Positions 1 through 50,224 of a stretch of DNA of 54,713 nucleotides are shown here, one piece after another. The stretch covers positions 12,216 to 66,928 of the forward strand of contig JAIXKS010000039.1 in assembly GCA_026928325.1 (NCBI GenBank), written 5' to 3'. Position 1 is the first letter of the stretch. Each line of letters opens with the position of its first letter. The DNA comes from Chitinophagales bacterium (GTDB lineage: Bacteria; Bacteroidota; Bacteroidia; Chitinophagales; Saprospiraceae). Under the pieces are notes generated by a model. It did not search any database, was not told the origin of the DNA, and saw only the letters and a program-made list of their open reading frames with translations. The position numbers and the translations under genes were made by a program.

Positions 1-92
1 CTCGTCATAGTTACCACTATGCCTGCGTTTTTTGCCTTGATCTTTAAAAAATAACTTCCATTATTATTTAAGTATTTTTATAGACAGAGCAC
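1..92 (+). repeat. MITE-like inverted repeat, copy 1 (cut by window edge)
   Basis: This is the right-hand part of the dispersed element. It contains the central hairpin CATAGTtaccACTATG, the GCCTGCGTTTTTTGCC block and the right terminal repeat GACAGAGCAC (83-92). The left half lies outside the window. Copy 2 starts after a single intervening base, so the two form a head-to-tail pair in the same orientation. Confidence 0.85.
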
Positions 93-93
93 T

Positions 94-252
94 GTGCTCC
101 GTCCACAAAAAAATCTTAATAAAATGTTGTTCTTTTTTCAAATCTCTTCGTTAAAAATACTCGCCATAGTTACCACTATGCCTGCGTTTTTTGCCTTGAT
201 CTTTAAAAAAATAACTACCATTATAATTTAAGTCTTTTTATAGACAGAGCAC
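94..252 (+). repeat. MITE-like inverted repeat, copy 2
   Basis: Full-length copy. The left end is slightly degraded (GTGCTCCGTCC instead of GTGCTCTGTC) and the right end GACAGAGCAC (243-252) is intact, followed by TA. It ends nine bases before the stop codon of the minus-strand 487-aa gene, so it lies just downstream of that gene. No open frame inside suggests a protein. Confidence 0.85.
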
Positions 253-260
253 TATGTAAA

Positions 261-1724
261 TCATTTCTGTAATAACAGCTGAATTTTTTCTTCTAGCCAA
301 GGTTTAGAAACGATACCTTTCGTGTCAAGGACTTCTTGGTATAGCTTTTCAATTTTCTTTTTATCTCTTGGGTGGATTTTAATAAGGTTATTAGTGAATT
401 TTATCAAATTGAGATAATGCGCTTTTCTATCCGTGGATAAAGACCTTTCTCGTCGAATAAACATCTTGAAGGCTTGTAAATGCGATTCAAGGGCATCAAA
501 TTCATCTAATTCGTAATAGGCAGCGATTAATAAGGTTTTTGCGTTAATATTGTACCATACATCTTCGTAGGATACTCTATATAGATGCTGCAATACTTTA
601 CCAAAGTTTTTGCGATAAAATTCCAATCTCGCCAAGCTAAACTCTACAGCATTATCTCTTAGCTTTTCATCGACATATTTCGAATATTCATAAATGAAAT
701 TTTCAGCCCAAACTGTTTCATCAACCCTTGTAGCTATTTGTACGACGTTTCTAAAGGTGGTAGGAGATAGACTACCTTCATGTAAGATCAAGTCGTTGTC
801 AATGACTTGCTTATAGAGTTGAAAGGTTTCTTGTTGAAAGCTAATATCTCCTTTATTGACCCTATTGATGCAGTAGCTAATGGCTGTCGAATAGATCTCC
901 CATTGTTCGTGCTCAGGAAAAAGATGGATGGAATTTTTGATTTGATTTTTTAAATTATCGTAGTGGACGATATTACTACTTTCACTATAGGTTAGGTATA
1001 TGTTGTAGTACATGTCAATGGCCGGAATAGACTTGTAATCCTCCGATTGAGCTAAAATAAGTATGTTTTCGATATGCTCGAGTTCAATATCAATTTTATA
1101 CATTTTTTGCCAGCTGAGTAGGGTACAGTATTGCCTAAGCTTCTCGGCGATATAAAAGTAATCTAGGTTGTCTGAAATGTTTTTAAGGTTTAATTCAGAA
1201 GAAATTTCGACCTTTTCATTCTTTTTTTCATTTTCGGTTTTTAATCTAAATAGATTTTTTTCTATCAAGTATTTGTTGAGATAAAATTCGGCCGATTGGT
1301 TCATTTCTGATTTAGAAAGCCTTTCTATGTCTCCAATAATACTATTGTATAATTTGCTCAAATTTCGTTTTCTAATGCCTTCCAGCTTCAAATTGGTCTT
1401 AAAACTCTCGGATTGATCAAATTCTTTTTGGGCAATGAACGACTCAAGTAGGTGGATCAAATCTGAATTAAGCTGTAAGAATTTTTGATTTTTAAAGGGT
1501 TTTCCGGGGAAAACGATATCCCAAATAAATTCCGGCGATAAATCTTCGATAATACCTTTTCGAATTGCATCTTCTAGGATATTATAGAAAACAATAAGAT
1601 TTTCATTAGCATTAAAGTAAGGAGAGCGTACATACTTACTAAAGCTATTAAGTTCGTACACAGAAAGGTTGCCAAGTGCAATTGTTATCTTTCGGTCTTT
1701 CAATTTAAATGAAAAAATATACAA
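261..1724 (-). CDS. Uncharacterised alpha-helical 487-aa protein
   Basis: I do not recognise this protein. It is almost entirely predicted helix with many Leu, Lys, Glu and Tyr residues, and its C-terminal half (about residues 280-470) reads like TPR-type helical hairpins. No signal peptide or membrane segment is visible, so it is probably cytoplasmic. There is no ATG near the 5' end: the frame opens with TTG at 1724, another TTG lies at codon 8 (1703), and the first Met is residue 141. An in-frame stop lies eight codons upstream of 1724. The start is therefore uncertain and must use TTG or another rare codon. The gene diverges from the dockerin gene at 2165, and its 3' end abuts a MITE-like repeat. 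The unbroken length argues that it is a real gene. Confidence 0.7.
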   Translation of the reverse strand: MYIFSFKLKDRKITIALGNLSVYELNSFSKYVRSPYFNANENLIVFYNILEDAIRKGIIEDLSPEFIWDIVFPGKPFKNQKFLQLNSDLIHLLESFIAQKEFDQSESFKTNLKLEGIRKRNLSKLYNSIIGDIERLSKSEMNQSAEFYLNKYLIEKNLFRLKTENEKKNEKVEISSELNLKNISDNLDYFYIAEKLRQYCTLLSWQKMYKIDIELEHIENILILAQSEDYKSIPAIDMYYNIYLTYSESSNIVHYDNLKNQIKNSIHLFPEHEQWEIYSTAISYCINRVNKGDISFQQETFQLYKQVIDNDLILHEGSLSPTTFRNVVQIATRVDETVWAENFIYEYSKYVDEKLRDNAVEFSLARLEFYRKNFGKVLQHLYRVSYEDVWYNINAKTLLIAAYYELDEFDALESHLQAFKMFIRRERSLSTDRKAHYLNLIKFTNNLIKIHPRDKKKIEKLYQEVLDTKGIVSKPWLEEKIQLLLQK

Positions 1725-2164
1725 TGTAAAGTTATAATAATTTAATCATAGCACAAAATAAATTTAGATTTTCAACATCAGAAGTTGTATTTTAATGGTT
1801 TATAGTTCATAGAAAAAAGGCTGATTTTATGCTGATATCTGGTAAACAAACTGCTTCATCTTTATTAAAAATATAATGTATAATATTTTTATTTTAATAG
1901 TTGTTATAAATGATAAAATTCCATTATTTGTCAAGTGAACTTCTGAAAATGGTTGTATAAATTGGCTATACATGAATATTTTTTACATGTATAAATAAGT
2001 GAGTTTAATTCATATTGGATACCAAAAAAGGATGTGATATTATATAATTATAAAAAACATATAATATTTTTTGTTGTTTATTTTGTAGTTTAATAATTAT
2101 TTTGTTTCTTTGCTCCTGAATTGTAACCAAAATCATAGGGATTCGTTCCCACAATTTTATTAAA
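1725..2164. other. AT-rich divergent intergenic region
   Basis: About 440 bases between two divergently transcribed genes, very rich in A and T. It must hold both promoters, but I see no exact TAnnTTTG box; the closest is TTTCTTTGC near 2104-2112, about 50 bases before the + strand gene. No repeat copy, RNA gene or credible short coding frame was seen. Confidence 0.5.
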
Positions 2165-4648
2165 ATGAAGCATATCAAAAATTTAAAGATTTTTATTTTG
2201 CTTTTGATTTTTTTGCCAAAGATTAATGCACAAATTAACGATGGTGAAAAATTCGTATATTTGCTTCAAGGGCAAGTTTACGAAGATACGATTAAAAGTA
2301 ATTTTCCGATTGTCGGTATTTCACCTCTTATTGAAAATTGCTATATCTCCAAAATTGCAAATTTAGGCAATAAGAATTACCGCATCGTAGTCAATCCCCC
2401 ACAAAGTAACCCCGACTATGTTGGTCCCGCAAAAGTGTCCGTTCAATATACTGATGGATTTAAACCTAGGTACGTAACGTGGCATATCACCTATTTGGCT
2501 TCGAAAATATCAACCACGGATGATTTTGTGGCTTTCGACACCAATGATGAAATCGCAATAGATCCTTTAGCTAATGATGTATTTTCTGGTAGTAGCTTAG
2601 AGATTTCTGGATTAGGTGTTGTCAAAGGAGGGACAGCTAGTTTTACAAAAGATAGTATTTATTTTACGCCAGATGCCGATGCAGACCTCGGATTCGTCAT
2701 TTATGGTGTGAAGGACGATTTAGGAGCCGTGGCTAATGGTACGATAAGATATATTCGTCAGCATAACAATTATCCGACTTTGGATTCAGTGGAATATACC
2801 ATTTTGAATTCACAAAGTCAAGTAATCACTTTTTCAACTCAGGACTTTACACTTACGAGTACTACTGAATTTGGTGACGTAGATTTCTTAACACCATTTG
2901 CAGCTAAATTCCAACCTTTACACGGTGTAGAAGGTCAAGAGCGATTAACATTTACAGATGCAAATGATAACCAGAGAATAGTTATAATTAATATTCTCAA
3001 TAAAGAACAGAATACATCTAGTGTAAGAGACGACGTTTTTTATACGCCTAAAAATACCTCAATTACTTTTGATGTTTTTGCGAATGATTTAAGTGAGAAT
3101 TTTCCAATTGTCAGTTATTCTCAAGATTTGACCTTAGATACGTTAGGTGTTTTTACATATAATCCACCTAGGGATTTTTCAGGTGTAAAATTCTTTAATT
3201 ATAAAGTTAATTATGGTCAATGGCAGTCAACCGGTAAAATTACCCTATATATAGGAAATTATGATCCGCTTACAACTGAAGACTATACTTTCCATACCTT
3301 AAAAAATGATCCATTAGTCCTGACTTATAACGTGCCGATTGATGGATATACCTTTAATGTCTTGAATCAACCAGCTTATGGCTCCGTAGAGATATTTAAT
3401 AATACTACTGTAAGTGAAGGTTGTGATGTGTTCTATTCTAAATCAACGATTATATACTCACCGGATTATCAATATTACGGTAGTGATTCTTTTGATATAG
3501 AATATTGTGCAGCTGATAATCCTTGTAAGATTTATAAGGTTTATATAAATATCCATGATGCCACACCTGATACCCTTTGTCATTGCAACGGGCCGGATTG
3601 TGTTTGGGCTGGAGATATGAATGGCGACGGTAGAGTATCCGTAACCGATTTGTTATCCCTTGGACGCTTTATCGGAATATCCGGCGATCAAAGAGAGGAT
3701 GTGGTATATACTTTCAGATCGGGACAAGAAGCAAGCAATTGGAATTATGATCAACCGAATGGCTTGAATATCAAGCATATCGATGCTAATGGCGACGGAA
3801 TCATAAATGAAGCTGATATGTCGTTGATTGATGCTTATTATGGTAATGTGCATCAACTGGTACCGGAAGAAATCCTTGCCATTAAGGATTACCCATTTGA
3901 TTTGATTCCAAATACAACAGAAGTTGATTCCGGAGACTTATTGATTCTCGATATAGTTTTAGGTAGTGCCTCAAAGCCGGTTGTTGACTTGTTTGGGTTG
4001 GCCTTCGCATTGAACATCAATCCAAGTATGATTGATACGGCAAGTCTGGATGTTAACTATTTTGACAATAGTTGGTTTAGCAGGGATCGTGCTACACTAC
4101 ACATGACAAAGCAACCTAAGGCCGGATTGTTACATACAGCCATCACCAATACCTATTCAATTGTAGAAGATGAATTGGAAGGCTTTAGACCACCAGGTAC
4201 GAGCGGTGCTGGTGCTATCGGCCAGATAGTGATGATTGTAGAAGATGAACTAGAAGGCTTTAAGACAGACGATGATTATATCATTAGAAGGATTAGCACG
4301 GATGGCATCCAAATAGAGGATGCAGATGGTACAAAATATTTGTTGCCTGATACTTATGTTGATATCCGGGTAAATAAGAAAAAACAAGCTACTGAACCAA
4401 CAGAAGATAAGTTGATTGTATATCCAAACCCTGTTAAGGACAAGTTGATGATACATTTCAATGGTAGAAATGTAATGCAATCGGTAAGTATCTATGATCA
4501 AGTAGGTATGTTGGTCGATGATATGCAAAACATAAATGCACAGTCTGTTCATCTAAATACATCGCATTATGCTGAAGGTATTTATTATATTCAGGTGCGT
4601 ACAGAGACCGGTGTGATTACTAAAAAGGTGGTAATTTTGAACAAGTAA
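2165..4648 (+). CDS. Secreted dockerin-domain protein with T9SS type A sorting signal
   Basis: A large secreted protein. Residues 1-22 form a signal peptide (lysines, hydrophobic stretch, then NAQ). The following ~400 residues are beta-rich, with cadherin-like or Ig-like segments ('DVFANDLS', 'YTPKNTSITFDVF'). A Cys-rich linker (CHCNGPDC) leads into two dockerin-type calcium loops, DMNGDGRVSVTD (484-495) and DANGDGIINEAD (540-551). A cohesin-like beta domain (about 575-730) follows. The last ~75 residues, beginning KLIVYPNPVKDK, are a T9SS type A C-terminal domain, so export to the cell surface or medium is expected. The phrase IVEDELEGF occurs twice, 76 bases apart. The exact role is unknown; a cohesin/dockerin-style surface scaffold is possible. 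A good terminator follows. Confidence 0.85.
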   Translation: MKHIKNLKIFILLLIFLPKINAQINDGEKFVYLLQGQVYEDTIKSNFPIVGISPLIENCYISKIANLGNKNYRIVVNPPQSNPDYVGPAKVSVQYTDGFKPRYVTWHITYLASKISTTDDFVAFDTNDEIAIDPLANDVFSGSSLEISGLGVVKGGTASFTKDSIYFTPDADADLGFVIYGVKDDLGAVANGTIRYIRQHNNYPTLDSVEYTILNSQSQVITFSTQDFTLTSTTEFGDVDFLTPFAAKFQPLHGVEGQERLTFTDANDNQRIVIINILNKEQNTSSVRDDVFYTPKNTSITFDVFANDLSENFPIVSYSQDLTLDTLGVFTYNPPRDFSGVKFFNYKVNYGQWQSTGKITLYIGNYDPLTTEDYTFHTLKNDPLVLTYNVPIDGYTFNVLNQPAYGSVEIFNNTTVSEGCDVFYSKSTIIYSPDYQYYGSDSFDIEYCAADNPCKIYKVYINIHDATPDTLCHCNGPDCVWAGDMNGDGRVSVTDLLSLGRFIGISGDQREDVVYTFRSGQEASNWNYDQPNGLNIKHIDANGDGIINEADMSLIDAYYGNVHQLVPEEILAIKDYPFDLIPNTTEVDSGDLLILDIVLGSASKPVVDLFGLAFALNINPSMIDTASLDVNYFDNSWFSRDRATLHMTKQPKAGLLHTAITNTYSIVEDELEGFRPPGTSGAGAIGQIVMIVEDELEGFKTDDDYIIRRISTDGIQIEDADGTKYLLPDTYVDIRVNKKKQATEPTEDKLIVYPNPVKDKLMIHFNGRNVMQSVSIYDQVGMLVDDMQNINAQSVHLNTSHYAEGIYYIQVRTETGVITKKVVILNK

Positions 4649-4669
4649 TAATATTAAAAAATAAATAAG

Positions 4670-4707
4670 AAAAGCGTAGTAATAGGTGGTATTATTGCGC
4701 TTTTTTT
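4670..4707 (+). terminator. Intrinsic terminator after dockerin gene
   Basis: Hairpin with outer stem AAAAGCG (4670-4676) pairing CGCTTTT (4698-4704), an inner GTAATA/TATTAT stem and a GGTGG loop, followed by a T run. It lies 22 bases after the stop codon at 4648. Confidence 0.8.
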
Positions 4708-4890
4708 ATGCTATAATAAAATATCTAAACGTGATGAATTACTAAGATTAAATCTGTCAATATCCCATTTTGAAGGGGATATAAAAAACTATCAGTAATT
4801 GCTAGTTGTTAATATCATAAATTGCCTTATCTTGGGCAGTTTTATAGAACGAATTAGACGTTGTAAAGTGTTTACATACAATCTTGGAAT

Positions 4891-8211: not shown

Positions 8212-8367
8212 GCTCTGTCAACAAAAGAATCTTAATGAAATGTCCTTCCTTTTCCAAATCTCATCGTTAAAAATACGCATCATAGTTACCACTATGCCTG
8301 CGTTTTTGCCTTGATCGTTAAAAAAATAACTTCCATTATAATTTAAGTCTTTTTATAGGCAGAGCAA
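8212..8367 (+). repeat. MITE-like inverted repeat, copy 3
   Basis: Nearly full-length copy. The left end lacks two bases (GCTCTGTC) and the right end is degraded (GGCAGAGCAA), with TA on both sides. The interior, including the CATAGTtaccACTATG hairpin, is well kept. It sits in the ~430-base divergent gap between the TPR lipoprotein gene and the S9 peptidase gene. It is the one copy in a divergent promoter region, so it could not act as a 3' terminator for either neighbour. Confidence 0.85.
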
Positions 8368-14000: not shown

Positions 14001-16675
14001 TGTCGAAGGCATCTTTTAAAAATATAACGACCCCTACTACCATTTTTGTAACGGTAACTGATAATAAGGGATGTTCAAATGTTTTGTCGCATGATATAGA
14101 CATTACTTCATCATCTGTAGGACGTGATTCCTTTGCTATATTTTGTAATACAAATCAAGTAACGGTTAATCTTTTTGATTATTTAACTTTGGGTACATCT
14201 AAAAGTGGCGTATGGAAGTCAGGTAAAGACACAATCAAAACTCCGGAAGATTATTTAATAACAGCCTTACCTCTCGGTGATACGGTCTTGATGTACATTG
14301 TTTCTGATTCGATTTGCGGGGTGGATACAGCTCGTATTGCCGTTACGATCAATGGAGGTAACAATGCCGGTAAAGATTTTACGGGTCAGTATTGTGAAAA
14401 TAGTAATGTCGTTTTAGACTTGGGTACTTTGTTAGGAAATCATGACAAAGGTGGCATATGGTCGGTAGTACCTTCTGGAAGTATCGATTTGTCCAATCCT
14501 AGTAAAGTTGACTTGTCGGCGACACCACCAGGGAGATATATTCTAACTTATAAAATCGATGATAATAATTGTGATCCCGATAGTGCTGTCGTTACTATCT
14601 TTGTGATAGCAGAGCCTCATGCTGGTCCGGATGTAAATACGGCTTTATGTGTAGGTGCACAAATCGATTTATTCTCATTGTTGAATGGTGTTGATCTTAC
14701 TGGACGATTTCAAAATATCAATATGTATCCAGGTTTTAGTGGTTCTGTTTGGAATACGGCTGGTTTGGCACAAGGTAATTATACGTTTGAATACACGGTA
14801 GATGGAATATTCCCTTGTAATCATGATGTTGCATTGATATCGATAGACCTTAAATCCGCATTGAACGCAGGAGCTGACGTAGATGTCGATTTTTGTGATA
14901 CCAAAACGATAAATCTCTTTGATTATTTGGATGTCAATGCGGATGGAGGAGGCACCTTCTTGTATGGAGGGCAACCAGTAGATCATGGAGTTTTTGCTAC
15001 TTTTAATACCATCGATTCTTATACCTTTATCTATGAAGTGGGAGATGATATCGTCTGTCCAAAAGTATCTTCGGTTTTGAAATTTAATAAAATCAAAGCT
15101 CCTCCTTTCTTAGGATTGAATATCCCTGATATGTGTATTGGTCAATGTCAAGATTTATATGTTGGATATGATCCTGTCAATATTGATGAGATAACTTTGA
15201 CCGGCAAAGTATGGTCAACCAATGAACAGTTTACAGAGATCCATTATGCGATTGATGATGACGTTAGCGCAGATTTCGTGCTACTGAAAATTTGTTCTGA
15301 TAATAGCTGGCCTTCGGGAAGTACAGTTGTGTTGACGTTAGAATCCATAACAATGAATAATGGCTTGTGCGTTTTTGAAGTAGATCAACCGGTCACGCTA
15401 AATATAAATGATCTTCCTGTTAAAAGCATCCAAGAAGTCCTTTGTAATTCGGAATCTATCACGATTGGCGGTCAAGAGTTTTCGGCTTCGCATCCTTCAG
15501 GAGAAGTCATCCTTGTTTCTCAAGACGATACGAAGTGTGACACAATTGTTCAAGTCAATCTTCAGTTTTATCCTGAAGCTATTGGAATCTTTGAAGCCTC
15601 TTATTGCGATATTCAAAAGACGGTAGTTATCGGAAATGAGACGTTTTCCTATACAAAACCGGAGGGTATTGCCATTTTAAAAGCAGGTGCTACCAATGGC
15701 TGTGATAGTATTATCCATGTAAAGATTAATTATGATAAGATAACCATTACCGGAGCTTTCACTGTAACGACGTGTGATGATAATTATGAATTGAATATCG
15801 GCGGAGAATCCTTTAATAAAACGCATCCTTCAGGTCAAGCATTATTACCGGGTTTGGCAGTTGGTGGCTGTGATAGCTTGGTGTTAGTAAATCTGATTTT
15901 TGAAGATTTTAGATTTGATTACGAATTAGAGTATGCTTGTGATGCCTCGCCTGCCATACTGAATGTCGTTAGTGCTTCTCAAAGTGGACCTTATCGTGTT
16001 TTAGTAGATGGGACGGAAGTCAGCCAAGCAAATGTATTGCCTATAAAAATTCCTGTTTTAAGTGGGCAGCATATTATTCAGGTAGTCAATGCCGCTGGTT
16101 GCGCATCTCTGATAAACATCGAGGTGAAAGACAACGAACCTAGCCCGGACGTTACACTAACACAAGTTCCATTATCAGATGGTCGAGTTCAAATTATGGT
16201 AATTGCACCACAAAATAATATCTTTGATTTGGAATGGTCTCCATTTAGCAGCTTAACTTGCAAAGATTGTTTTGATCCTATTGCAAATCCTGAAGTAACA
16301 ACGACCTATGTATTGTCGTATCTTTATGGAAGTAATTGCCAAGAATTCCAAACCATCACTATTGAACGGATTGTAGCGGATGTGACGATTCCTAATGTTT
16401 TTAGCCCTAATAATGATGGTGTCAACGACAAATTTTTTGTGTTTGTTCCCGATAATTTATCGGCAACCATTAAAAATTTAAGCGTTTTTGACCGATGGGG
16501 CAATTTGATGTTTCAAGTGAAAGATGCTCCACCTAATGACCCTGAGTATGGTTGGGATGGAAAATTTGGCGGAAGGTTACTTAACCCAGGTGTTTATGTA
16601 TATTCTGTTGAAGTCTATTTCGGCGCATTAGCACAGACAAAACAATATTCTGGATCGCTGACGATTATTCATTGA
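11009..16675 (+). CDS. Giant surface protein with repeats and T9SS type B (gliding-motility) C-terminal domain
   Basis: An 1888-aa secreted protein. Residues 1-20 are a signal peptide ending SYGQ. An N-terminal Cys-rich beta domain of about 150 residues is followed by Ig/PKD-like modules. From about residue 1037 to 1355 there are four related ~80-residue units, three with an 'NAGxD/HAGPD…C' opening. Residues ~1478-1631 hold three tandem units of about 52 residues with the pattern C…IGG-x-x-F…P-x-G-x-A…CDS-x-x-x-VNL. The end, starting IPNVFSPNNDGVNDKFF and including VFDRWGNLMF, is the type B sorting domain shared with SprB-like gliding adhesins. Display on the surface as an adhesin is inferred; no enzyme motif is visible. 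A MITE-like repeat begins just after the stop. Confidence 0.88.
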   Translation: MKHVFYIVLVCFSFLKSYGQTIIFSNSGASYTNIDNTQPNYPVVDTYGPIDISNCTSVRFSMDFAFNVGWPGSGNMESADECMGCSGQVQDALVGGCFSCWDFMHIEVFIDGISVYAELIGGAGETRQSGNLFWSDCTNGASNMTIEVTNMNWAMDETNSFSNVQVACWDVNPTADYNPMPTCEGQPLNLVGTISVPADASSHIWSGTGGIIADPNSLNTSVTGATNGNVYTLTVTDINSCTASSSVAVALDPIEDASFFLDDFCAPNSGAAIIIGTSGGTFTFDPPPGDGATINPSTGVISNAVGGHSYTVKYTTPGNCWDEASVNVNALDGPSGNLQGSAILCPGQCTTFSFSFYSGTEPYTLQLSVSPPGFSLPPIPGVSTSQVFTICYMGSGPFPSFDPGTFTITIPTIYSGSGSLILTGISDGSGCPGTASGSFDLTLTSGPTANGAGPLTACADMNGTATFDLTSLDNTITGGNGSLIVNWFEDAGGQTPITNPSAYVTSGGTVYAQVSNGSCASDLVPITLIVDIGMVPFISMLCADSGTDNCTLCLTGNSVDLAFLFGNNDAYNVTVVDLATSTQYSGTVSNYSSLTVPVFGSTTFMLLDIQPMGGCQNINTYMDQVNINIVSAPDIDPISIDPSCNSIILPPITGSNLSGNAKYYTGPGGTGIGYDPGIAIMTSQTLYIYDEIGGCSDEVIVNITIIPLVLFDIIPDLEGCGSVVLPAITGDGVSYSAYYSTNSDGTGTIFYPGNTVNTSVVLYIFDPVADPDCIGNVVAFSVSILDLPPVPVITNIDCTSNNNTGSFEVLSPLGTEYEYQVDNGVPQTNVTFEGLLNGSHTIKVINVVTGCEQTLSFNVNCNCLNPATISLPSFSDTICVNEVFFLDNIIVSSNITDLRFIHNGSGTVNIGVSGLFTFNFKYNSGSGDAGKVVTFTIISNDPDGSDPCEPATVTFLLYVNALPSGPIMGPSLVCSGEDVTLEVTGGSTYDWSDGGGFLSKASFKNITTPTTIFVTVTDNKGCSNVLSHDIDITSSSVGRDSFAIFCNTNQVTVNLFDYLTLGTSKSGVWKSGKDTIKTPEDYLITALPLGDTVLMYIVSDSICGVDTARIAVTINGGNNAGKDFTGQYCENSNVVLDLGTLLGNHDKGGIWSVVPSGSIDLSNPSKVDLSATPPGRYILTYKIDDNNCDPDSAVVTIFVIAEPHAGPDVNTALCVGAQIDLFSLLNGVDLTGRFQNINMYPGFSGSVWNTAGLAQGNYTFEYTVDGIFPCNHDVALISIDLKSALNAGADVDVDFCDTKTINLFDYLDVNADGGGTFLYGGQPVDHGVFATFNTIDSYTFIYEVGDDIVCPKVSSVLKFNKIKAPPFLGLNIPDMCIGQCQDLYVGYDPVNIDEITLTGKVWSTNEQFTEIHYAIDDDVSADFVLLKICSDNSWPSGSTVVLTLESITMNNGLCVFEVDQPVTLNINDLPVKSIQEVLCNSESITIGGQEFSASHPSGEVILVSQDDTKCDTIVQVNLQFYPEAIGIFEASYCDIQKTVVIGNETFSYTKPEGIAILKAGATNGCDSIIHVKINYDKITITGAFTVTTCDDNYELNIGGESFNKTHPSGQALLPGLAVGGCDSLVLVNLIFEDFRFDYELEYACDASPAILNVVSASQSGPYRVLVDGTEVSQANVLPIKIPVLSGQHIIQVVNAAGCASLINIEVKDNEPSPDVTLTQVPLSDGRVQIMVIAPQNNIFDLEWSPFSSLTCKDCFDPIANPEVTTTYVLSYLYGSNCQEFQTITIERIVADVTIPNVFSPNNDGVNDKFFVFVPDNLSATIKNLSVFDRWGNLMFQVKDAPPNDPEYGWDGKFGGRLLNPGVYVYSVEVYFGALAQTKQYSGSLTIIH

Positions 16676-16692
16676 TCTGAACTTTTTTGCTA

Positions 16693-16851
16693 GTGCTCTG
16701 TCAACAAAAAAATCTTAATGAAATGTCGTTCTTTTTTCAAATCTCATCGTTAAAAATACGCGTCATAGTTACCACTATGCCTGCGTTTTTTGCCTTGATC
16801 TTTAAAAAAATAACTTCCATTATAATTTAAGTCTTTTTATAGACAGAGCAC
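16693..16851 (+). repeat. MITE-like inverted repeat, copy 4 (best preserved)
   Basis: The cleanest copy at 159 bases. GTGCTCTGTC (16693-16702) and GACAGAGCAC (16842-16851) are perfect 10-base inverted ends; including the flanks, CTA on the left and TAG on the right extend the symmetry to 13 bases. The arms pair imperfectly over the whole length and meet at CATAGTtaccACTATG. It lies 17 bases after the stop of the 1888-aa protein. Confidence 0.92.
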
Positions 16852-17118
16852 TAGAATTTAATATTTTTATGAATGTCGAAATTATTTTTTTAATTTTGAC
16901 TCGTAAATCGATTTTAAATACTTGTTGATTTATTATTATGTGTTTATTATTAAATATCAATGAGTTGTAATGGTGCTTGGCTATATATTTTACTTTTAAT
17001 AAAGGTCGGGACAAATAATATTCGATTAATTTTAAGTATTCTTATTTTGAATTTACAAAAAAAGAAATAATTTTATGGCTATGAATCATAATTTGCTAAC
17101 CTGCTTAAGTTTTTTTAT
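16852..17118. other. AT-rich intergenic region before metalloprotease gene
   Basis: Together with repeat copy 4 this fills the ~440-base gap. The repeat-free part is AT-rich. CATAATTTGC, about 30 bases before the ATG at 17119, is a near match to a -7 box but has only one base between TA and TTTG. Nothing else was recognised. Confidence 0.4.
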
Positions 17119-20100: not shown

Positions 20101-22992
20101 GAATGTAGATTTTTAGGAGAAGCATTATTTACGGCACCTAAAAATTGTTGTCCATTAGATGTGGATCTTGGTAATAAGGTAGAAAAATGTGTTGGTGAAT
20201 CCGTAACCTTGGATGCTGGAAGTGGTGGCGCCTCCTATTTGTGGAAACGCGATGGCGTGGAGATAGCAGGTAGTGTAGGTAGGACGATCACAGTCATGAC
20301 TACAGGTAATTATGAGGTAGAAGTAACTCATGCTTCGGGTTGTAAACAGTCGGATAGAGTCGATGTTGTCTTCCACGAGTTGCCTCAGGTCGTAAGTCTT
20401 CCTGAATTGCATTTTTGTGAAGGCGAAACCTATGAAATTAATCCGAGCATCACCGGTGCTACAGAGATACAATGGTATAAAGATGGCGTTATTTTGAATG
20501 GAGCTAATAATGGAAAATTGGAAATAACCGAAGGAGGTATCTATCAAGTAGTTGTTCGCAATCAATACAATTGTTCTAATGAAGCCACTATGGATATCGA
20601 AAGAGTTAAAGCTCCAGTGGTTGATTTAGGTCCAGAACAAAGTAAATGTGAAGGAGAATTGGTCATCTTAGATGCCGGTAATGATGGTACTACTTTTGAA
20701 TGGTATTATAATAGTGTTGTCATTCCTGGTGCAACTGCTTCGACACATCAGGCCGATAAATCAGGTATTTATAGAGTTGTCGTAACCAATGCAAAACAGT
20801 GTTCGTCGAATGCTCAAGTTAAGGTTAATTTCTTCGCATCTCCTGAAGTTGCCGATTTTACAGAATCAATAATCAATGCTTGTAAGGGCGAAACGATTAC
20901 CTTGACCACAGTAGCTAAGGGTTATAACACGATTACTTGGTTAAAAGATGGAGTAGGATCCCCGCTTTATGATGCGAAGACAGAAATAAGAGTTACGGAG
21001 AGTGGTGTTTATACGGTGGTTGCGACCAACACGGCTTTATGTCAGACCAAAAAATCTATTGAAGTTAATTTTAGAGATTTTCCTGCTGTAGATTTAGGTG
21101 ATCCAACTTTAGTTTCTTGTATTGGAAACCCGGTAACCTTGGATGGTGGAGCAGATGGACAATCGTTTGTTTGGTCCAATAATGGTGTGGCGTTACCAGA
21201 TAAAACGAGAACAATCTCGGTTACTACGGATGGTAAATATAAAGTAGTTGTAACGAATGAATATGGATGTGTGGCAGAAGATGAAATCAATATTTCGTTT
21301 ATTCCGGGTCCATCAGTTTCAGTTAGTGGAGATGCTTCATTCTGTGAAGGTGGCAATCATACCATTACCATAACCACTGATGCCTCAAATCCTGAAATCA
21401 AATGGTTTGATGTCAATGGGCAGATTGCAGGAGCTACTTCGACAAGTCTTAATGTGACTCAAGGCGGAACTTATAGGGTTTCAGTCAAAGGAGGCACGCC
21501 GGCATGCGAAGTATTTAAGGATATAAACATAACGGTTAATCCAAATCCGGTTGTCAATTTAGGCTCGGATATCAGCTTGTGTGAAGGAAGTACTAACCCA
21601 ACATTGGATGCTGGAGCAGGTTTCGCCTCGTACAGTTGGAGTTTAAACGGAACTCAATCGGGTACGAACCAAACCATCATCGCTACGCAAGGAGGAACTT
21701 ATAAAGTTGTCGTTGAAAACAGCTTTGGTTGTAGCGGTTCGGATGAGGTAAAAGTCGATTTTTTACCAATACCTGAAATCTCGAATTTAGAAGATTCTTA
21801 TGCTTTATGTGAAGGGAAAACGCTAGAAATCACGATCGTGTCTTCCGGAACTACCTTTGTATGGAAAAAGGATAATGTTGTTATTCCTGGTAACAATTCT
21901 AAGAGTATAACCATAACTTCAGGCGGTATATATAGAGTAGAAGCAAGCAATGCCGCAAATTGTAACGCATATAGTGATTTTGTAGTAGTTGATTATCCAA
22001 ATCCGGTACTGGATTTGGGCCCGGACTTTACTTTATGTCCAGGTGAAACTCGAACCCTTGATGCAGGTGGAGATCATATTTTATATCAATGGAATGTTCA
22101 GAATATAGGACCAACTTTGCTTGTTCAGAATAATGCACTAGGAGGGACAGTTACAGAAACGGTCTATTCAGTGAGAGTCGTTAGCTTCATTGGGTGTATC
22201 GCTGATGATAGCGTCAAAGTTACGAGCATCCCTAAAGTGGAAGCAAAAATCACTTCAAACCAACCTGGAGTATGTAATGGAGAGCCGGTTACGCTGACAG
22301 CATCCGGAGGTATTCGGTATGTTTGGACGGATCCATTGGATGGCTCTTTGTCAGCACTCAATGGAAATCAGGTAGTTGCGAATCCTAAGAAAACGACGAT
22401 TTATTCTGTTGAGGTTAGTGATGATGGCGCTTGTGCTAATAATACTTCCTCTGCATCTATAGAGATTAAGATTTACGAACCAGTCAATGTCTCGGCAGGG
22501 CAAGATACTTGTGTTATCGCCGGAAGAACAATCAGACTTCAGGCTACTGGAGGAATATCCTATCAATGGGATCATCCGGAATTAATCGTAGGAAGTAATA
22601 CCGTTGCAAATCCGGAGATCAAACCTACATCGGAGACCTTGTTTACAGTTACTATTACAGATGCTAATGGTTGTACATACACGGATCAAGTGGTTGTATG
22701 CGTGCGAGAGCCTAATAATCTAGACTTCAAATTAGTCAATATTATTACACCAAATGGAGATGGTAAAAATGACGAACTTTATTTTGGCGATTTATCGCAA
22801 TACCCGGACAACAAACTTCGGATTTTTAACAGATGGGGAAATACCGTTTTTGAGGCAGAAGGTTATCAACATATAGGTAAGTTGTTTGATGGAACGAGAC
22901 GAGGAGAAAGACTTCCGGCCGATACGTATTATTACATTTTGACCATTGGAGGTGAAACGTATAAGAGTGCATTAACCATATTGTGGGATTAA
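17119..22992 (+). CDS. Secreted M12B-like zinc metalloprotease with eleven Ig-like modules and T9SS type B domain
   Basis: A 1957-aa exported zinc protease. A signal peptide (1-25, ending VHAQ) is followed by a propeptide-like stretch and a metzincin catalytic domain: HEFAHQFGATH gives His334, Glu335, His338 and His344, and the Met-turn is TIMSYNG with Met372, as in reprolysin (M12B) relatives. Further beta domains follow. From ~1014 to ~1880 come eleven Cys-containing Ig/PKD-like modules. The first nine alternate between two types, giving a ~155-residue A-B period (A modules start near 1014, 1168, 1324, 1479 and 1631 with 'VDLG…LDAG'). The end (ITPNGDGKNDELYF, IFNRWGNTVF) is a T9SS type B sorting domain. 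PorP/SprF starts 26 bases downstream, probably in the same operon. Substrate is unknown. Confidence 0.92.
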   Translation: MFRINFVSLFLSMLVSFSLLSVHAQTIGNNVPKINEDYFGTKEKVTISNDWVNQLLNASGRSTVQVELPVYGQTLTVKAIPNDVYTDDERGHDLVKTYDIRIPELNHVYGALTVGSGYLFVTIYNYGKMISIYPDYKAFNEYWIEYGVQPEMNRLQHFCADHPANEEVQRTMDVFQGGNRSKLTMGSSRYEYNVALACTGEYYEGNGGADNTVRTSMINSLNAISAIFKNELSYTLKTSSSIIKLYNNPASDPFDPSRDRVQMAREVISANFTSNRYNLGHVFHKHQDGDGWANGGVALLQAVCNDAGSNPAKAGGWSGSYSNVGNGWINLSAHEFAHQFGATHTFNGFGGSCTDNISSETAVEIGSGTTIMSYNGLCDADQNIPGSGILDNYFHIISLEQMYNFVYKGNGGKCGTNKASDNLAPEVVANPCNATYKIPKNTPFYLEAKGTFPDEDNHTFCWEQIDEDGSGTIVTQGKVGTRAASDARAPIFRSYPPTNVPYRYFPALSSLNTGQVNPFDILPSVARVLNFNVSLRDNNVDGGAVANDDVSIVVENSGPFVISSPNGGEKLNAGVPTEVKWNTNGSDNLCSKVRIKLSFDGGNTFNFVVAENVNYNAGSYTITIPESVVASKDAKMMIECMDYSCFKIFTISKNNFEVISNCIAPSTKVTPITFATFLEGDPGLKLNMKNNLGKKVTSISGSVARTDAEGNLIFLDKTPAVCAGPSNSNRYDVIEFSVDKSGNYTFNDGGPFGTVMNVYEYEFTGTNCTNHIGSSAVRPTGMGSINIGSPLTVSLTAGKLYFMTVGSFSLDLPTIPFNYKLTLSNQPAGSSLFDGVYLPDGYFYTYIAVNSATDVIAGVSDEADFTNLRFGEYCIYGVISSDTNDPTTWIGKTVSQSIIDGNCIQISSNCRSIAVNAGCRIESVTLGTQTPCIVATNVFTQELTITYDRAPDSGLIIVNGQEFNVTESPQTIVLTGLDSDGQPVDVDAYFSEIPECRFLGEALFTAPKNCCPLDVDLGNKVEKCVGESVTLDAGSGGASYLWKRDGVEIAGSVGRTITVMTTGNYEVEVTHASGCKQSDRVDVVFHELPQVVSLPELHFCEGETYEINPSITGATEIQWYKDGVILNGANNGKLEITEGGIYQVVVRNQYNCSNEATMDIERVKAPVVDLGPEQSKCEGELVILDAGNDGTTFEWYYNSVVIPGATASTHQADKSGIYRVVVTNAKQCSSNAQVKVNFFASPEVADFTESIINACKGETITLTTVAKGYNTITWLKDGVGSPLYDAKTEIRVTESGVYTVVATNTALCQTKKSIEVNFRDFPAVDLGDPTLVSCIGNPVTLDGGADGQSFVWSNNGVALPDKTRTISVTTDGKYKVVVTNEYGCVAEDEINISFIPGPSVSVSGDASFCEGGNHTITITTDASNPEIKWFDVNGQIAGATSTSLNVTQGGTYRVSVKGGTPACEVFKDINITVNPNPVVNLGSDISLCEGSTNPTLDAGAGFASYSWSLNGTQSGTNQTIIATQGGTYKVVVENSFGCSGSDEVKVDFLPIPEISNLEDSYALCEGKTLEITIVSSGTTFVWKKDNVVIPGNNSKSITITSGGIYRVEASNAANCNAYSDFVVVDYPNPVLDLGPDFTLCPGETRTLDAGGDHILYQWNVQNIGPTLLVQNNALGGTVTETVYSVRVVSFIGCIADDSVKVTSIPKVEAKITSNQPGVCNGEPVTLTASGGIRYVWTDPLDGSLSALNGNQVVANPKKTTIYSVEVSDDGACANNTSSASIEIKIYEPVNVSAGQDTCVIAGRTIRLQATGGISYQWDHPELIVGSNTVANPEIKPTSETLFTVTITDANGCTYTDQVVVCVREPNNLDFKLVNIITPNGDGKNDELYFGDLSQYPDNKLRIFNRWGNTVFEAEGYQHIGKLFDGTRRGERLPADTYYYILTIGGETYKSALTILWD

Positions 22993-38503: not shown

Positions 38504-40468
38504 ATGCATAGATTTGATATAGGTATTGTTATTGTAAGTTACAACGTTAGGCATTTTTTAGAAAGATGTTTGCTATCTGTTCAAAATGCTGTCGTCGATG
38601 GACTCAAAATCGAAACTTGGGTTGTAGATAATGCCTCGGTTGATGGCACTGCTGATATGGTGGAGTCTCAATTTTCTGAAGTGAATTTTATTGCAAATGC
38701 CGATAATGTCGGCTTTTCTTCCGCAAATAATCAAGCCATCCGAATGATGGACGCCAAATACGTCCTTTTGCTTAACCCGGATACCATCTTAGAAGAGAAA
38801 ACGCTGAAGATGTGTTTTGATTTTATGGAGGGCAAGCCTAAAGCAGGTGTTGTTGGTGTACGAATGATAGATGGAGCGGGCGTTTTTTTGCCAGAGTCCA
38901 AGAGAAGTGTTCCCAATCTTTGGAATTCATTCTGCAAATTATTTTATCTCTCGGATCTATTCCAATCCTCTAAAATATTTAGCGGGTATAACTTAGGTTA
39001 TCTTCCGGAACATGAAACGCATAAGGTGGAAGTTCTTTGTGGTGCTTTTATGTTCATTAGAAATGATGTCCTTGATGAAATCGGGCTTCTCGATGAGGAT
39101 TTCTTTATGTATGGAGAAGATATAGATTTGTCTTATCGGATTTTAAAGGCAAATTATGAAGTTTGGTATTATCCCGAGACAACCATTATTCACTATAAAG
39201 GAGAAAGCACTAAGAAGGGTAGTTTTAATTATCTGAAGACCTTTTATGGCGCCATGCAAATCTATGTCAATAAGCACTACGGACAAGGTGACGCTCGGAT
39301 TTTTGCAAAGGTAATTAATATGGCCATTGCTGTTAGAGGATTAATTAGTGGAATAGGTGCGGTTTTAGCGGTAGTTTTTCGTCCTATCTTGGATATGGTT
39401 TTAATTGTGTTCATGTTGTACCTAGTGAAAGCGGGCTGGGCCAATTATTATTTTGAAAATAACCATTACTATGATGAATCGCCGATATATTGGATTTTTA
39501 GCGGTTATGCTTTGATATGGGTGTTTGTATTATGGCTGAATGGATATTATGATCGCAATAGAGCCGGTGAAAGGAGTTTTCAGTCTTTATGGATAGGAAC
39601 TGTGTTGATTTTGCTGGTTTATGCCTTATTGCCTGTGTGGTTGCGAACCAGTCGTGCGATTATTTTACTAGGAACGATAGGTAGTTACATCATAGTAACT
39701 TTAACGGCGTGGTTTACAGGCTTGAAAAAGTCAAAACAAAATTATCGGGTCAAATCACCTACCATCGCCATTGTTGCTAATCAGGAAAATGCGGCAATAT
39801 TAAAAACAGTTATTGAAAGCACGATGGATTATGAGACTTGTTATTTTATTGCTCCAAATCAGGATCAGTACCATTCGTTTTTTACCAATACACTTGCTTC
39901 TTTACCTAATATCGTCAAAAAACTAGGAATCAGTGAAGTCGTGTATGGTAGCGAAGATGTGGCCATGAAAGATATCATACAGTCGATGACAGATATTGGG
40001 CAAAATGTAAGCTTTAAGATAGGAAGTGCCATATCTCAAAAAATCATAGGCTCAGACGATCGAAATGCACCGGGTGAATTTTTTTCTCTTGATGTTAAAT
40101 ATAAATTAGCAGATTTTAGAATGTTGCGATTTAAGCGGATTTTGGACTTGTGTTTGGCATTGATTTTTATTCCTTTTATTCCATTTCTATGGATATTGAG
40201 TGGGTTTTCGTCTAAGATTGTGGAAAATATCGTACAGGTCGTGTTGGGTCATCGAACTTGGGTAGGGTACACCGGACAGCAACAAGATTATCACTTCTTA
40301 CCGGAATTACCTCAAGCCGTTTTTCCTATAAATGCTAATGATATAGGTATAATCTACGATCAAAAGGATTTTAAGGCTATCAATACCGCTTATGCTAGAA
40401 ATTATAATATCTGGCAAGATGTTAAGATTGTTTTGACTAGTGCTCTGTCTATAAAAAGATATAAATAA
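38504..40468 (+). CDS. Membrane glycosyltransferase: GT2 domain fused to a degenerate sugar-phosphate-transferase-like region
   Basis: The start at 38504, four bases after the recR stop, leads straight into the GT2 fold (DIGIVIVSYNVR); an in-frame ATG at 38483 overlaps recR. Numbers count from 38504. Residues ~5-260 are a rhamnosyl-type GT2 domain with WVVDNASVDGT, LLLNPDT and EDIDLSYR motifs. Hydrophobic segments follow (about 265-400), then a small Rossmann-like region and a segment resembling the C-terminal half of WcaJ-type polyprenyl-phosphate sugar transferases (KRILDLCLALIF, then YARNYNIWQDVKIVLTSAL). The catalytic middle of that family (KFRSM and VGPRP-type motifs) is missing, so this part is probably non-catalytic. 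The last nine codons and stop come from a MITE-like repeat. A role in surface polysaccharide assembly is inferred. Confidence 0.85.
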   Translation: MHRFDIGIVIVSYNVRHFLERCLLSVQNAVVDGLKIETWVVDNASVDGTADMVESQFSEVNFIANADNVGFSSANNQAIRMMDAKYVLLLNPDTILEEKTLKMCFDFMEGKPKAGVVGVRMIDGAGVFLPESKRSVPNLWNSFCKLFYLSDLFQSSKIFSGYNLGYLPEHETHKVEVLCGAFMFIRNDVLDEIGLLDEDFFMYGEDIDLSYRILKANYEVWYYPETTIIHYKGESTKKGSFNYLKTFYGAMQIYVNKHYGQGDARIFAKVINMAIAVRGLISGIGAVLAVVFRPILDMVLIVFMLYLVKAGWANYYFENNHYYDESPIYWIFSGYALIWVFVLWLNGYYDRNRAGERSFQSLWIGTVLILLVYALLPVWLRTSRAIILLGTIGSYIIVTLTAWFTGLKKSKQNYRVKSPTIAIVANQENAAILKTVIESTMDYETCYFIAPNQDQYHSFFTNTLASLPNIVKKLGISEVVYGSEDVAMKDIIQSMTDIGQNVSFKIGSAISQKIIGSDDRNAPGEFFSLDVKYKLADFRMLRFKRILDLCLALIFIPFIPFLWILSGFSSKIVENIVQVVLGHRTWVGYTGQQQDYHFLPELPQAVFPINANDIGIIYDQKDFKAINTAYARNYNIWQDVKIVLTSALSIKRYK

Positions 40469-40601
40469 TAATGGAAGTTATTTTTTTTAAAAGATCAAGG
40501 CGAAAAACGGAGGCATAGTGGTAACTATGACGAGTATTTTTAACGATGAGATTTGAAAAAAAATAACAACATTTCATTAAGATATTTTGTGGACATCGCA
40601 C
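40440..40601 (-). repeat. MITE-like inverted repeat, copy 5 (opposite orientation, overlaps a gene end)
   Basis: Full-length copy in the opposite orientation to the others. It is flanked by CTA (40437-40439) and TAG (40602-40604). One end is the perfect GTGCTCTGTC (40440-40449); the other is degraded (GGACATCGCAC). The glycosyltransferase frame runs into it and stops at a TAA inside (40466-40468). The element lies between convergent genes, where a hairpin could act as a terminator. Confidence 0.9.
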
Positions 40602-45700: not shown

Positions 45701-45730
45701 ATTTGTTGGATCAAAAAATATAGACCAATT

Positions 45731-46948: not shown

Positions 46949-46965
46949 AACAGATTTATAATTTC

Positions 46966-47523
46966 ATGATGACATTACTGACGCAGAGCTGGTCCTGGTG
47001 GTTTTCGGGATTAGTGATATCATCTATCATGTTTCTATTGTTATTTTTCGGTAAATCCTTTGGATTTTCAGCTAATTTAAGGACGATTTGTGCCGCTGCC
47101 GGTGCAGGAAAACATGTCAGTTTTTTTAATTTCAATTGGAAAGCTCAAACTTGGAATTTGATTTTTTTAGTTGGAGCCATTTTAGGTGGATTTATTGCAG
47201 CTACGTTTATGAGTGACGGATCACCTGCACATATTTCTGAAAATACTATTCGGGATTTAGCAGAATTAGGCTTTTCAAAACCAGAATCGATGCAACCTGC
47301 GGAGCTTTATGATTTTAGCGCGTTAATGACAGGTAAAGGTTTTTTAATTTTGGCTTTAGGAGGTTTAATGGTTGGTTTTGGTAGTCGCTATGCCGGTGGT
47401 TGTACTTCTGGACACGCTATCAGTGGATTATCAAATTTACAGTTACCTTCTTTAATGGCTGTTATTGGTTTTTTTATCGGTGGCCTATTGATGACCCACG
47501 TTTTATTTCCCTTTATTTTTTAA
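46966..47523 (+). CDS. YeeE/YedE-family transporter half (first)
   Basis: A 185-aa membrane protein with about four to five helices and the family signature GFGSRYAGGCTSGHAISG, with Cys146 in GCTSGH. The E. coli relative TsuA (YeeE) is one longer chain that carries thiosulfate through conserved cysteines; here the function is split over two adjacent genes. The partner gene starts 13 bases later. Uptake of thiosulfate, or movement of another sulfur species, is inferred. Confidence 0.88.
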   Translation: MMTLLTQSWSWWFSGLVISSIMFLLLFFGKSFGFSANLRTICAAAGAGKHVSFFNFNWKAQTWNLIFLVGAILGGFIAATFMSDGSPAHISENTIRDLAELGFSKPESMQPAELYDFSALMTGKGFLILALGGLMVGFGSRYAGGCTSGHAISGLSNLQLPSLMAVIGFFIGGLLMTHVLFPFIF

Positions 47524-47536
47524 ATAATATATAGAA

Positions 47537-47950
47537 ATGAAAGTTTTAAAATATTTGCTTGCAGGTATCGTTTTTGGCATTGTCATGGCTAAGTCAGAGG
47601 CTATATCTTGGTACAGAATCCAGGAGATGTTTAGATTTCAAGCTTTTCATATGTATGGGATTATTGGTGTTGCGGTTATCTTAGGTATGATTGGCGTATT
47701 CCTTATTAAAAAGTTTAAAATTAGGGATTATCACGGTAACCCTATCTTATTTCACCCAAAGGATCGTTCGATACCTAGGTACTTAATCGGTGGCGTTATC
47801 TTTGGTATGGGTTGGGCGTTAAGTGGCGCATGTCCTGGCCCAATGGTGGTGAATATCGGATATGGGTTTCTAACGATGACTATTGTTTTTCTTTTTGCCT
47901 TGGTAGGGACTTATTTATACGGAGTTGTAAAAAGCAAACTACCTCATTAA
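47537..47950 (+). CDS. YeeE/YedE-family transporter half (second, DUF6691-like)
   Basis: A 137-aa membrane protein with four hydrophobic segments and the second family signature GMGWALSGACPGPMVVNIGYG, with Cys99 in the position matching GCTSGH of the first half. With the preceding gene it would make one complete pore. A hairpin just after the stop suggests that the main transcript ends here. Confidence 0.88.
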   Translation: MKVLKYLLAGIVFGIVMAKSEAISWYRIQEMFRFQAFHMYGIIGVAVILGMIGVFLIKKFKIRDYHGNPILFHPKDRSIPRYLIGGVIFGMGWALSGACPGPMVVNIGYGFLTMTIVFLFALVGTYLYGVVKSKLPH

Positions 47951-47958
47951 TATCTACG

Positions 47959-47996
47959 AAAACTCAATTTTGTTACTATATGCTTGTTGAGTTTTT
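47959..47996 (+). terminator. Probable terminator after YeeE pair
   Basis: AAAACTCAA (47959-47967) pairs with TTGAGTTTT (47987-47995) around a 19-base loop, followed by a short T run. The long AU-rich loop makes it weaker than the others, so read-through into the rhodanese gene is plausible. Confidence 0.5.
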
Positions 47997-48026
47997 ATAT
48001 TTTGTAATTGATTATAATAAATTATC

Positions 48027-48344
48027 ATGTTGGGATTTTTAAAATCGCTTTTTGCGCCTAAGTTTGACGCTGTATTAGATCAAAAAATGAAATCAACCCC
48101 GTTCTTAGTAGATGTCCGAACCCCAATGGAGTATTCAAGTGGACATCCTAAAGGTGCTGTTAATATTCCATTGAGTAGTATATCTTCTAATTTGTCAAAA
48201 TTTAAAAATAAAAAGAATATCATTCTCTTCTGTCGGAGCGGAAATCGAAGTGGTCAAGCTGCTTCTATACTCAAAAGTAATGGCATTTCTGATGTATATA
48301 ATGGTGGCTCTTGGCAAAATGTAAATCGGTACTTACAGTCATAA
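48027..48344 (+). CDS. Single-domain rhodanese (sulfurtransferase)
   Basis: A 105-aa protein that is one rhodanese domain: DVRTPMEYSSGH (29-40) and the catalytic loop CRSGNRSG with Cys69. No signal peptide is seen, so it is cytoplasmic. Its active loop CRSGNRS is identical to that of the fusion protein at 45731, so they may act on the same sulfur pool. It likely passes sulfane sulfur between the YeeE pair and the persulfide dioxygenase. The 250 bases after it show nothing recognisable. Confidence 0.9.
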   Translation: MLGFLKSLFAPKFDAVLDQKMKSTPFLVDVRTPMEYSSGHPKGAVNIPLSSISSNLSKFKNKKNIILFCRSGNRSGQAASILKSNGISDVYNGGSWQNVNRYLQS

Positions 48345-48595
48345 TCTGAGCCCATCTTTCTTTAGGTATCGATTTATAGTCATTCTTATAGTCAAAATAT
48401 TTATAGATATCTTGATTGTGTATCCATCAACGAGTGGATAGGCTATGGGTATTGTATGTGCTTTAGAACTGGAATCAATAGCATCTTTATACGTGTTATT
48501 GGTGATGCGGTAGTTTTAAATAAATACGTACTAAGTTGTTTTGAATAGGAGTGAATTCAAAGGGTTTTTCTTTTTCTTTTGAAATATTTTTAAGC

Positions 48596-50020
48596 ATGGT
48601 AATTAAAAGGAATATAGCTGTTTTGTTTTTTGTGTTATGCTTTCAGTTTGTATATGCGCAACATCAAGAAGTCGGCGAAAAACCTGAGATTTGGAATTTG
48701 GCATTAACGGACTCTACAGAAAGCAAGAATCTTTTGCAAGCCTTTAAAAATGGTAAAACGCAAGGTCATGTTCGCTATGTGTTTTCCTCAACGACCAATA
48801 AGGGTGCACTGAGCGATTACTATGCGAATGCGATAGGAGGTGGATTGAGATATGAAACCGGATCTTTTCATAATTTCAAGGCGGTGATTAGCGGATTTTA
48901 TATTTTTAATTTAGGGTCTTCAGCCAATATTGCAGAAAAGGATCCTTTGACCGGTGCAGATTCTAGATATGAATATGGACTTTTTGACATTACCGGCAAG
49001 GAATCCATCAAAGAAATCAATCGCCTTGAAGAATTTAATTTGAGCTATAGTTATGGTGGTTTGAATTTGACCTATGGAAGACAATTGTTAAATACGCCAT
49101 TTATCAATCTTCAAGATGGTAGGATGCGCCCGACCGTAGTCGAAGGACTTTGGGCAAATTATAAACATAACGCCAATCATCAGTTTCAAGCGGGTTATAT
49201 ATACAAAGTATCGCCTAGGAGTACCGTCGATTGGTATGATTTGAAATCTTCGTTGGGTATTTATTCCGTAGGTAGAGATGCCTCAGGTGCTAAGTCTGAT
49301 TACAAAGGGCATACGAACTCTATTGGTGTTTTTATGGGCAATTACACATGGAATGCTTCCTCAGCTTTGAAAATTCAAGCTTGGGATATCTTGTTTGAAA
49401 ATGTATTCAATACCGCTATGATTCAAGGTGATTATCAGCATGCACTTGAGCGTAGTCGGTTATACTCGGGACTTCAATTGGCATTGCAATCCAAGGTCGG
49501 ACAAGGAGGTAACGAAAATGAGGCTTGGGCTTATTATACGAATAAAAAACTGGTGTGGATTCTAGGAGCAAGATTGGGATTGAAAAATTCAAAATGGGAT
49601 TATTCTCTAAATTTCAACAGAATTTCTAGCGGTGGAAGGTATTTGATGCCTCGCGAATGGGGTAGGGATTATTTTTATGCATTTATGTTGCGTGAACGCA
49701 CAGAAGGCGCCGGAGATGTTACCTCCATAAATTTGAAAAGCTCTTTTAATCTAAACGCATCTTCACAGCTCAATCTTGCCGCTGGATATATATCGATGCC
49801 GGACACGAAAAATTACTATCTCAACAAGTATGCTGTACCTTCATACGCCCATTTTGTTTTTGATTTTAAGCATAAGTTCAAAGGGATTTTCCAAGGTACA
49901 GAATCACAGGTCCTATACGTTTTTAAGCCCAGTATCGGTGAATACTACGATAATCTTTCAAGCCTATTTAATAAAGTGGATATGCATCTTTTTACCATAG
50001 TTGTCAATTTTAGGTTTTGA
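48596..50020 (+). CDS. OprD-like outer-membrane porin
   Basis: A 474-aa outer-membrane protein. I choose the ATG at 48596, because it gives a clean signal peptide (MVIKRNIAVLFFVLCFQFVYA, then QHQE); an upstream GTG at 48551 would add 15 residues. The mature protein is made of alternating amphipathic strands with turns and ends in Phe (VVNFRF), as expected for a barrel. The segment LNLTYGRQLLNTPFIN…RMRPTVVEGL resembles the OprD/OprQ family, which lets small anions and amino acids through. Its position beside the sulfur genes suggests entry of a sulfur compound, by inference only. A hairpin GCAACT/AGTTGC near 50035 is not followed by a T run. Confidence 0.78.
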   Translation: MVIKRNIAVLFFVLCFQFVYAQHQEVGEKPEIWNLALTDSTESKNLLQAFKNGKTQGHVRYVFSSTTNKGALSDYYANAIGGGLRYETGSFHNFKAVISGFYIFNLGSSANIAEKDPLTGADSRYEYGLFDITGKESIKEINRLEEFNLSYSYGGLNLTYGRQLLNTPFINLQDGRMRPTVVEGLWANYKHNANHQFQAGYIYKVSPRSTVDWYDLKSSLGIYSVGRDASGAKSDYKGHTNSIGVFMGNYTWNASSALKIQAWDILFENVFNTAMIQGDYQHALERSRLYSGLQLALQSKVGQGGNENEAWAYYTNKKLVWILGARLGLKNSKWDYSLNFNRISSGGRYLMPREWGRDYFYAFMLRERTEGAGDVTSINLKSSFNLNASSQLNLAAGYISMPDTKNYYLNKYAVPSYAHFVFDFKHKFKGIFQGTESQVLYVFKPSIGEYYDNLSSLFNKVDMHLFTIVVNFRF

Positions 50021-50082
50021 TAAATTTGGTAAAGCAACTTTTGATAGGTGAGTTGCGTTATAATGGTGTGGTTTTTAAGCTA

Positions 50083-50224
50083 GTGCTCTGTCAACAAAAG
50101 GATCTTATTAAAATGTCGTTCTGTTTTTCAAATCTCATCGTTAAAAATACTCGTCATAGTTACCACTATGCCTGCGTTTTTTGCCTTGATCTTTAAAAAT
50201 TAAGTATTTTTATAGACAGAGCCC
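50083..50224 (+). repeat. MITE-like inverted repeat, copy 6 (internal deletion)
   Basis: A 142-base copy with the left end GTGCTCTGTC (50083-50092), right end GACAGAGCCC (one mismatch), and CTA/TAG flanks. About 20 bases of the right arm are missing (the segment around AATAACTTCCATTATAAT). It lies 62 bases after the porin gene. Confidence 0.88.

Follow-up and report, generated by a model that had tools for sequence, protein, structure and literature searches.

The stretch of DNA analyzed here, referred to as the window (54,713 nt), corresponds to G000:C17:12216-66928, in a genome of 3.72 Mb and 74 contigs. All six copies of a short inverted repeat that an earlier note had claimed for it were recovered from the sequence, by repeat search and by folding (Table 1). 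The ends given in that note, GTGCTCTGTC and GACAGAGCAC, are indeed shared, most of the copies are about 159 bp long, and their identity to the genome consensus ranges from 0.924 to 0.987. Copies 1 and 2 stand head-to-tail, separated by a single base. The description of the repeat as a hairpin over its full length is also borne out, in that copy 4 folds beyond chance: as single-stranded DNA it reaches -26 kcal/mol (z -6.46) and its reverse strand as RNA -57.2 (z -9.35), and in both cases none of 200 shuffles folded as well. Intrinsic bending by phased A-tracts was considered and rejected, four sequences being no more curved than their shuffles. Elsewhere in the window, a direct repeat at 21539-21587 and 21995-22043 reads like an adhesin motif when translated by eye.

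Table 1. Copies of the inverted repeat in the window
Copy	Position	Strand	Length (bp)	Remarks
1	1..92	+	160 (whole copy)	Right part; 68 bases lie beyond the window edge
2	94..252	+	159	Identity to consensus 0.962
3	8210 or 8212..8367	+		Ends degenerate; TATA flanks
4	16693..16851	+	159	Nearest to consensus (0.987); flanks GCTA / TAGA
5	40440..40601	-	162	Reverse; flanks TCTA / TAGT
6	50083..50224	+	142	Right arm with deletion

Copies, insertion sites, and orientation in the host genome

The earlier note had extrapolated from the density in the window to hundreds of copies genome-wide, and this was right: allowing at most one mismatch over 3.72 Mb, the core ATAGTTACCACTAT has 239 matches (control, 6) and the TIR TAGTGCTCTGTC has 448 (control, 10). 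Abundance is taken from these pattern counts; a BLAST search of the genome returned at least 63 matches, with 40 of 315 first-look candidates scored and the window copies absent. The anatomy of the element was read from a nonrandom sample, 965 kb fetched around listed matches, which holds 139 core-bearing copies. Both TIRs were flagged in 101 of these, two being coordinate artefacts, and the remaining 99 include 57 copies of exactly 159 bp and 86 within 158-161 bp. Some TIR pairs (60 to 151 bp) carry an internal deletion. The host genome also has a second core, CGAACCAAGTGGTTCG, which is palindromic as well; three copies of the repeat that carry it (G000:C2:96361, 96822, and 97703) have identical flanks and lie within a larger repeated segment.

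Among lone copies with both ends, 48 of 57 have TA on both sides (background TA, 0.085), and 28 of these 48 show the extended CTA/TAG context, with C and G outside. Using 75 joined flanks as queries, we found no empty site, so the case for a TA duplication is made from the flanks. Insertion would recreate CTAG at either end, which may account for the tandems described below. Only 2 of 107 placed clusters fall inside an ORF. The repeats are short, repeated, bounded by TIRs, and, given their length, without a transposase or other protein, as MITEs are, and the genome search that the note had proposed for its MITE-like family supports that designation, having returned many further copies with common boundaries and TA flanks in this genome. 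A repeat piece was found at most 110 bases from the contig end in 12 of 20 contig ends tested; the MITE family therefore also limits the assembly. One 1,210-bp TIR pair (C14:34399-35608) was rejected as a transposon, since a regulator-like gene has a left end on one side and a diverged copy of the repeat on the other.

Adjacent copies in the 965-kb sample form 30 pairs, every one head-to-tail, and in one pair the spacing is as short as 38. Tandem partners have a median difference of 0.050 (26 measurable pairs) versus 0.082 for all pairs, and 7 of the 26 lie above the 30th percentile; the low divergence in most pairs therefore suggests that duplication or conversion explains most tandems, though not all. 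The orientation of the copies follows replication-type skew: with copies masked and windows of up to 20 kb per side, cut by the fetched stretches, 72 of 103 clusters are oriented with the GC skew and 72 of 103 against the AT skew (contig-flip permutation, p 0.001, 31 contigs). Local gene strand does not set orientation (51/103 clusters at 10 kb and 57/103 at 3 kb). Neighbours less than 5 kb apart share their orientation in 52 of 52 cases, compared with 21 same and 14 opposite farther apart; 52 of 52 exceeds what the skew bias would suggest by itself. Close inverted pairs would form long palindromes, which may be unstable or may be lost at contig ends. As a general rule, same-orientation neighbours had to be rejected, since six named two-core loci elsewhere comprise three same and three opposite arrangements; two of the three opposite-oriented loci, in other genomes, carry different TIRs.

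A common core with differing ends

As a rule, MITEs are identified from their ends, and their interiors drift. Here, a match to copy 4 was obtained in 18 of 80 genomes, its own included, and its alignments in other genera are mostly limited to the middle. (The copies in two genus genomes, G006 and G007, are the same as those in Saprospiraceae UBA7687 and Aureispira records, L173 and L141.) Outside the genus, inverted repeats of about 158 bp that have other ends carry a 46-bp core in their middle; they occur mostly in Saprospiraceae-like Bacteroidota and also in some Firmicutes, in Pasteurella testudinis, and in a Neisseria MAG. The core-pattern search of genome contigs, which is no census, gave at least 115 stretches. 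Among the matches listed, 11 of 80 records, from nine assemblies, are titled outside the Bacteroidota; isolates among the nine are P. testudinis DSM 23072 and Anaerotruncus colihominis JM4-15, and the others are MAGs, in which binning errors are possible. Exact matches in a 395-genome phylum sample were confined to the own genome and one same-family genome. The notion of one MITE family, as put forward in the earlier note, therefore holds for this genome, whereas beyond the genus it is mostly the centre that is common while the ends differ, and the picture becomes wider than a single family.

Because the core pattern fixes letters, conservation at these letters is by construction. However, pattern-free columns are also conserved in the 86 unique cores: TTC or TGC precedes GTT in 66, GC or TA follows GTTAAAAA in 82, and CC follows CTCG in 44. 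Two arm blocks, TTTT (-14 to -17) and AAA (+12 to +14), equal the core's free columns in conservation, which indicates that drift in the arms is not simply unconstrained. Once flank positions were restricted, a TIR score of at least 12 was reached by 54 of 101 core matches, versus 23 of 1,000 mispaired flanks, and these 54 TIR-paired elements have a mean length of 158.0 (sd 4.3). A crude rule sorts their TIRs into 27 clusters, of which some differ from others by a shift. By reading, several TIR types occur within single genomes. The Neisseria element lies outside the 54, and its ends were read by eye.

According to PMC4596501, BrickBuilt and other MITEs of Porphyromonas gingivalis, likewise from the Bacteroidota, have TIRs that match IS5-family elements; their TIRs are similar and their interiors differ, whereas here the interior is common and the TIRs differ. 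A second comparison is offered by the CREE of Neisseria, which PMC2649163 describes as short inverted repeats, mostly of 104-108 or 153-157 bp, with a directional conserved core, no encoded protein, and an inferred mobility. The present elements are alike in being inverted repeats of similar size with a directional core (PMC2649163), but their ends differ from the TATAG-type ends of CREE and the core is unmatched by profile.

Given these likenesses, it is tempting to speculate that both derive from one lineage, and some words are, by eye, common to both cores. Three Correia cores have mean alignment scores of 13.3, 20.0, and 17.1, above those of random Neisseria stretches (5.4, sd 4.2), yet 10, 2, and 6 of 200 shuffles, respectively, reach the same means. 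Moreover, a profile built on 92 cores returned 14 matches (E <=10) in 20 Neisseria loci, and none overlaps the 11 Correia-like stretches located there by a narrow rule, although the profile did match A-run cores of another kind in the same loci. Homology to Correia elements was thus tested and not established, and we consider a common descent unlikely.

None of 16 loci with related elements matched Rfam at the gathering score. Searches of plasmids and phages returned no match to the window copy, and plasmids none to the Neisseria element. One viral contig did match, with a core element at L316:2551-2596 that adjoins what by eye is a phage-integrase-like gene. We found no description of the core in the literature searched, an absence that is weak, as most subscription journals fell outside its scope. 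At two further loci (L310 in G003 and L314 in G006) the same TIRs enclose a longer unrelated sequence in place of the central hairpin.

Strand asymmetry of the predicted fold

Covariation in the central stem amounts to 428 of 551 pairs, against a mean of 240 and a maximum of 269 in 200 mispairings. The fold is predicted to favour one strand. With DNA parameters, the better fold belongs to the minus strand, defined as the one opposite to GTTAAAAA...GTTTTTTGCCT, in all 86 named elements and in 99 of 100 of the genome's own copies; when the arms alone are joined by one neutral loop, the same holds for 86 of 86 elements and 38 of 38 arm clusters. The mean energy of the arms alone is -30.7 for the minus strand versus -24.1 kcal/mol for the plus strand, compared with -14.5 versus -12.6 for mispaired arms. 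Since mispaired arms show a lean in the same direction (143 to 25 of 169; 1.9 versus 6.6 kcal/mol), part of the asymmetry must be attributed to base composition. Transition mismatches in the arms number 283 to 59, a ratio of 4.8 versus 1.85 upon mispairing. With RNA parameters, whole elements again favour minus (84, versus 2 plus), whereas the core alone shows the opposite lean (64 plus, 22 minus).

Resident copies carry 27 and 29 distinct wobble changes in the two directions, 4 compensatory changes, and 90 others; cell counts of 131 to 67 include inherited changes repeatedly. Pairing is therefore not kept by resident copies, suggesting that the constraint would act on the moving element rather than in the host. 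It cannot be separated from a strand-specific mutation process acting while the element is single-stranded, which would leave the same mark. The loss of pairing also bears on the idea that the host retains the core at gene ends as a transcript element, either a terminator or an RNase III site. Convergent gaps are indeed over-represented (31 of 96 clusters versus 125 of 644 gaps, from simple ORF calls), and Correia RNAs are RNase III substrates according to PMC2649163. However, beyond the decay of pairing in resident copies, gene direction shows no clear preference (26 to 18) and no terminator was called in 16500-17050, so that such a role appears improbable to us.

Alternatively, an asymmetric hairpin whose copies are biased in orientation could be what a Y1 single-strand transposase acts on, as in REP/RAYT systems, and Y1_Tnp matches are present in 10 of 10 genus genomes. 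Against this, the core is absent from all 30 Y1 loci (E 0.1; 30 of 32 matches had loci), with a single TIR-like word only in 4 of the 30, and neither TA on both sides nor symmetric TIRs are expected of REP/RAYT. We regard this as very unlikely.

Transposases with matching ends

The earlier note had also suggested looking for a transposase gene bounded by these terminal repeats, and here the outcome was negative: searches with PF13358, PF01609, PF13586, and Y1 revealed none among the loci examined in the host genome. PF01609 has 13 matches there, none of the 10 loci looked at being an IS with these ends, and PF13586 has one. An IS with this TIR was found in neither the host genome nor the genus genomes searched. 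The end GTGCTCTGTC has 11 exact matches in the 8 of 9 other genus genomes that were covered (all but G008); they are repeat copies or their remains, plus one lone end in G001 that has no transposase next to it. Also rejected was C13:126573, where the end of a gene remnant, which we take to be IS66-like, lies against a TIR and reads as a nested insertion.

The TA flanks within a CTAG context call to mind an IS630/Tc1-type MITE that targets CTAG/TA and is moved by an IS630-family DDE_3 transposase, IS630 being known to prefer CTAG. Yet PF13358 has no match in the host genome, so no DDE_3 partner is seen there, and the partners seen elsewhere are IS5-type or PF01609-bearing, which makes this origin rather improbable. 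In the Neisseria MAG, a core-bearing element is followed by TA and then by an IS5-family IS whose TIR is almost identical. The IS end reads GGGCTTCCTGACAATT, the left end of the element GGGCTTCCTAACAATT, and its right end, read inwards, GGGCTTCCTGACAG; 15 of the first 16 bases of the IS match the left end of the element. The transposase is assigned to NCBIfam IS5_3 (E 6.7e-75) and to Pfam DDE_Tnp_1 and DUF4096. Unlike the adjoining element, this IS, by reading, has a transposase and lacks the core. In a Lactobacillales MAG, AGAACCTGTTAACTTGTCTC is common to a core-bearing element (L122) and to an end that borders a broken PF01609 gene (L276), the decayed gene lying inside an end that shares 20 identical bases with that of the element. 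Eight of 10 core-element genomes have PF01609 matches, 19 in total, and matching ends were found in these two MAGs only.

Taken together, the repeats appear to be a small mobile element unable to move alone. We think it probable that they form a nonautonomous, TA-flanked MITE family that has grown to about 240 copies in the Saprospiraceae-like host genome, and that this family belongs, as a single branch, to a broader group of elements of about 158 bp that share a central, strand-asymmetric hairpin core and differ in their TIRs. The copies would have been cut and pasted by an IS5-type transposase that has since been lost from the host or was not found in it, with insertion into CTAG and duplication of TA, and the lineage may have acquired new TIRs on meeting other transposases. 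As pairing is lost in resident copies, the folded strand would presumably matter during movement.

What deserves attention are the common centre with its changing ends and the one-strand fold. It is tempting to go further and to propose a lineage of mobile hairpins that spans phyla, in which the centre is heritable, the ends are swapped to suit each transposase, and a step of the movement folds one strand, perhaps at the replication fork; we hold this extended proposal to be doubtful. If the common centre and the strand bias hold in an unbiased survey, something besides end recognition by a transposase would constrain core-bearing elements, and searching by the core would bring together elements that tools relying on the ends would divide among many families.

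A further IS of the host genome, with a 563-aa DDE transposase and the TIR GAGGCTGTCCGAAAAG, lies in the region of G000:C49:25939-26682 (L253), between two head-to-tail copies of the repeat whose abutting ends are missing.
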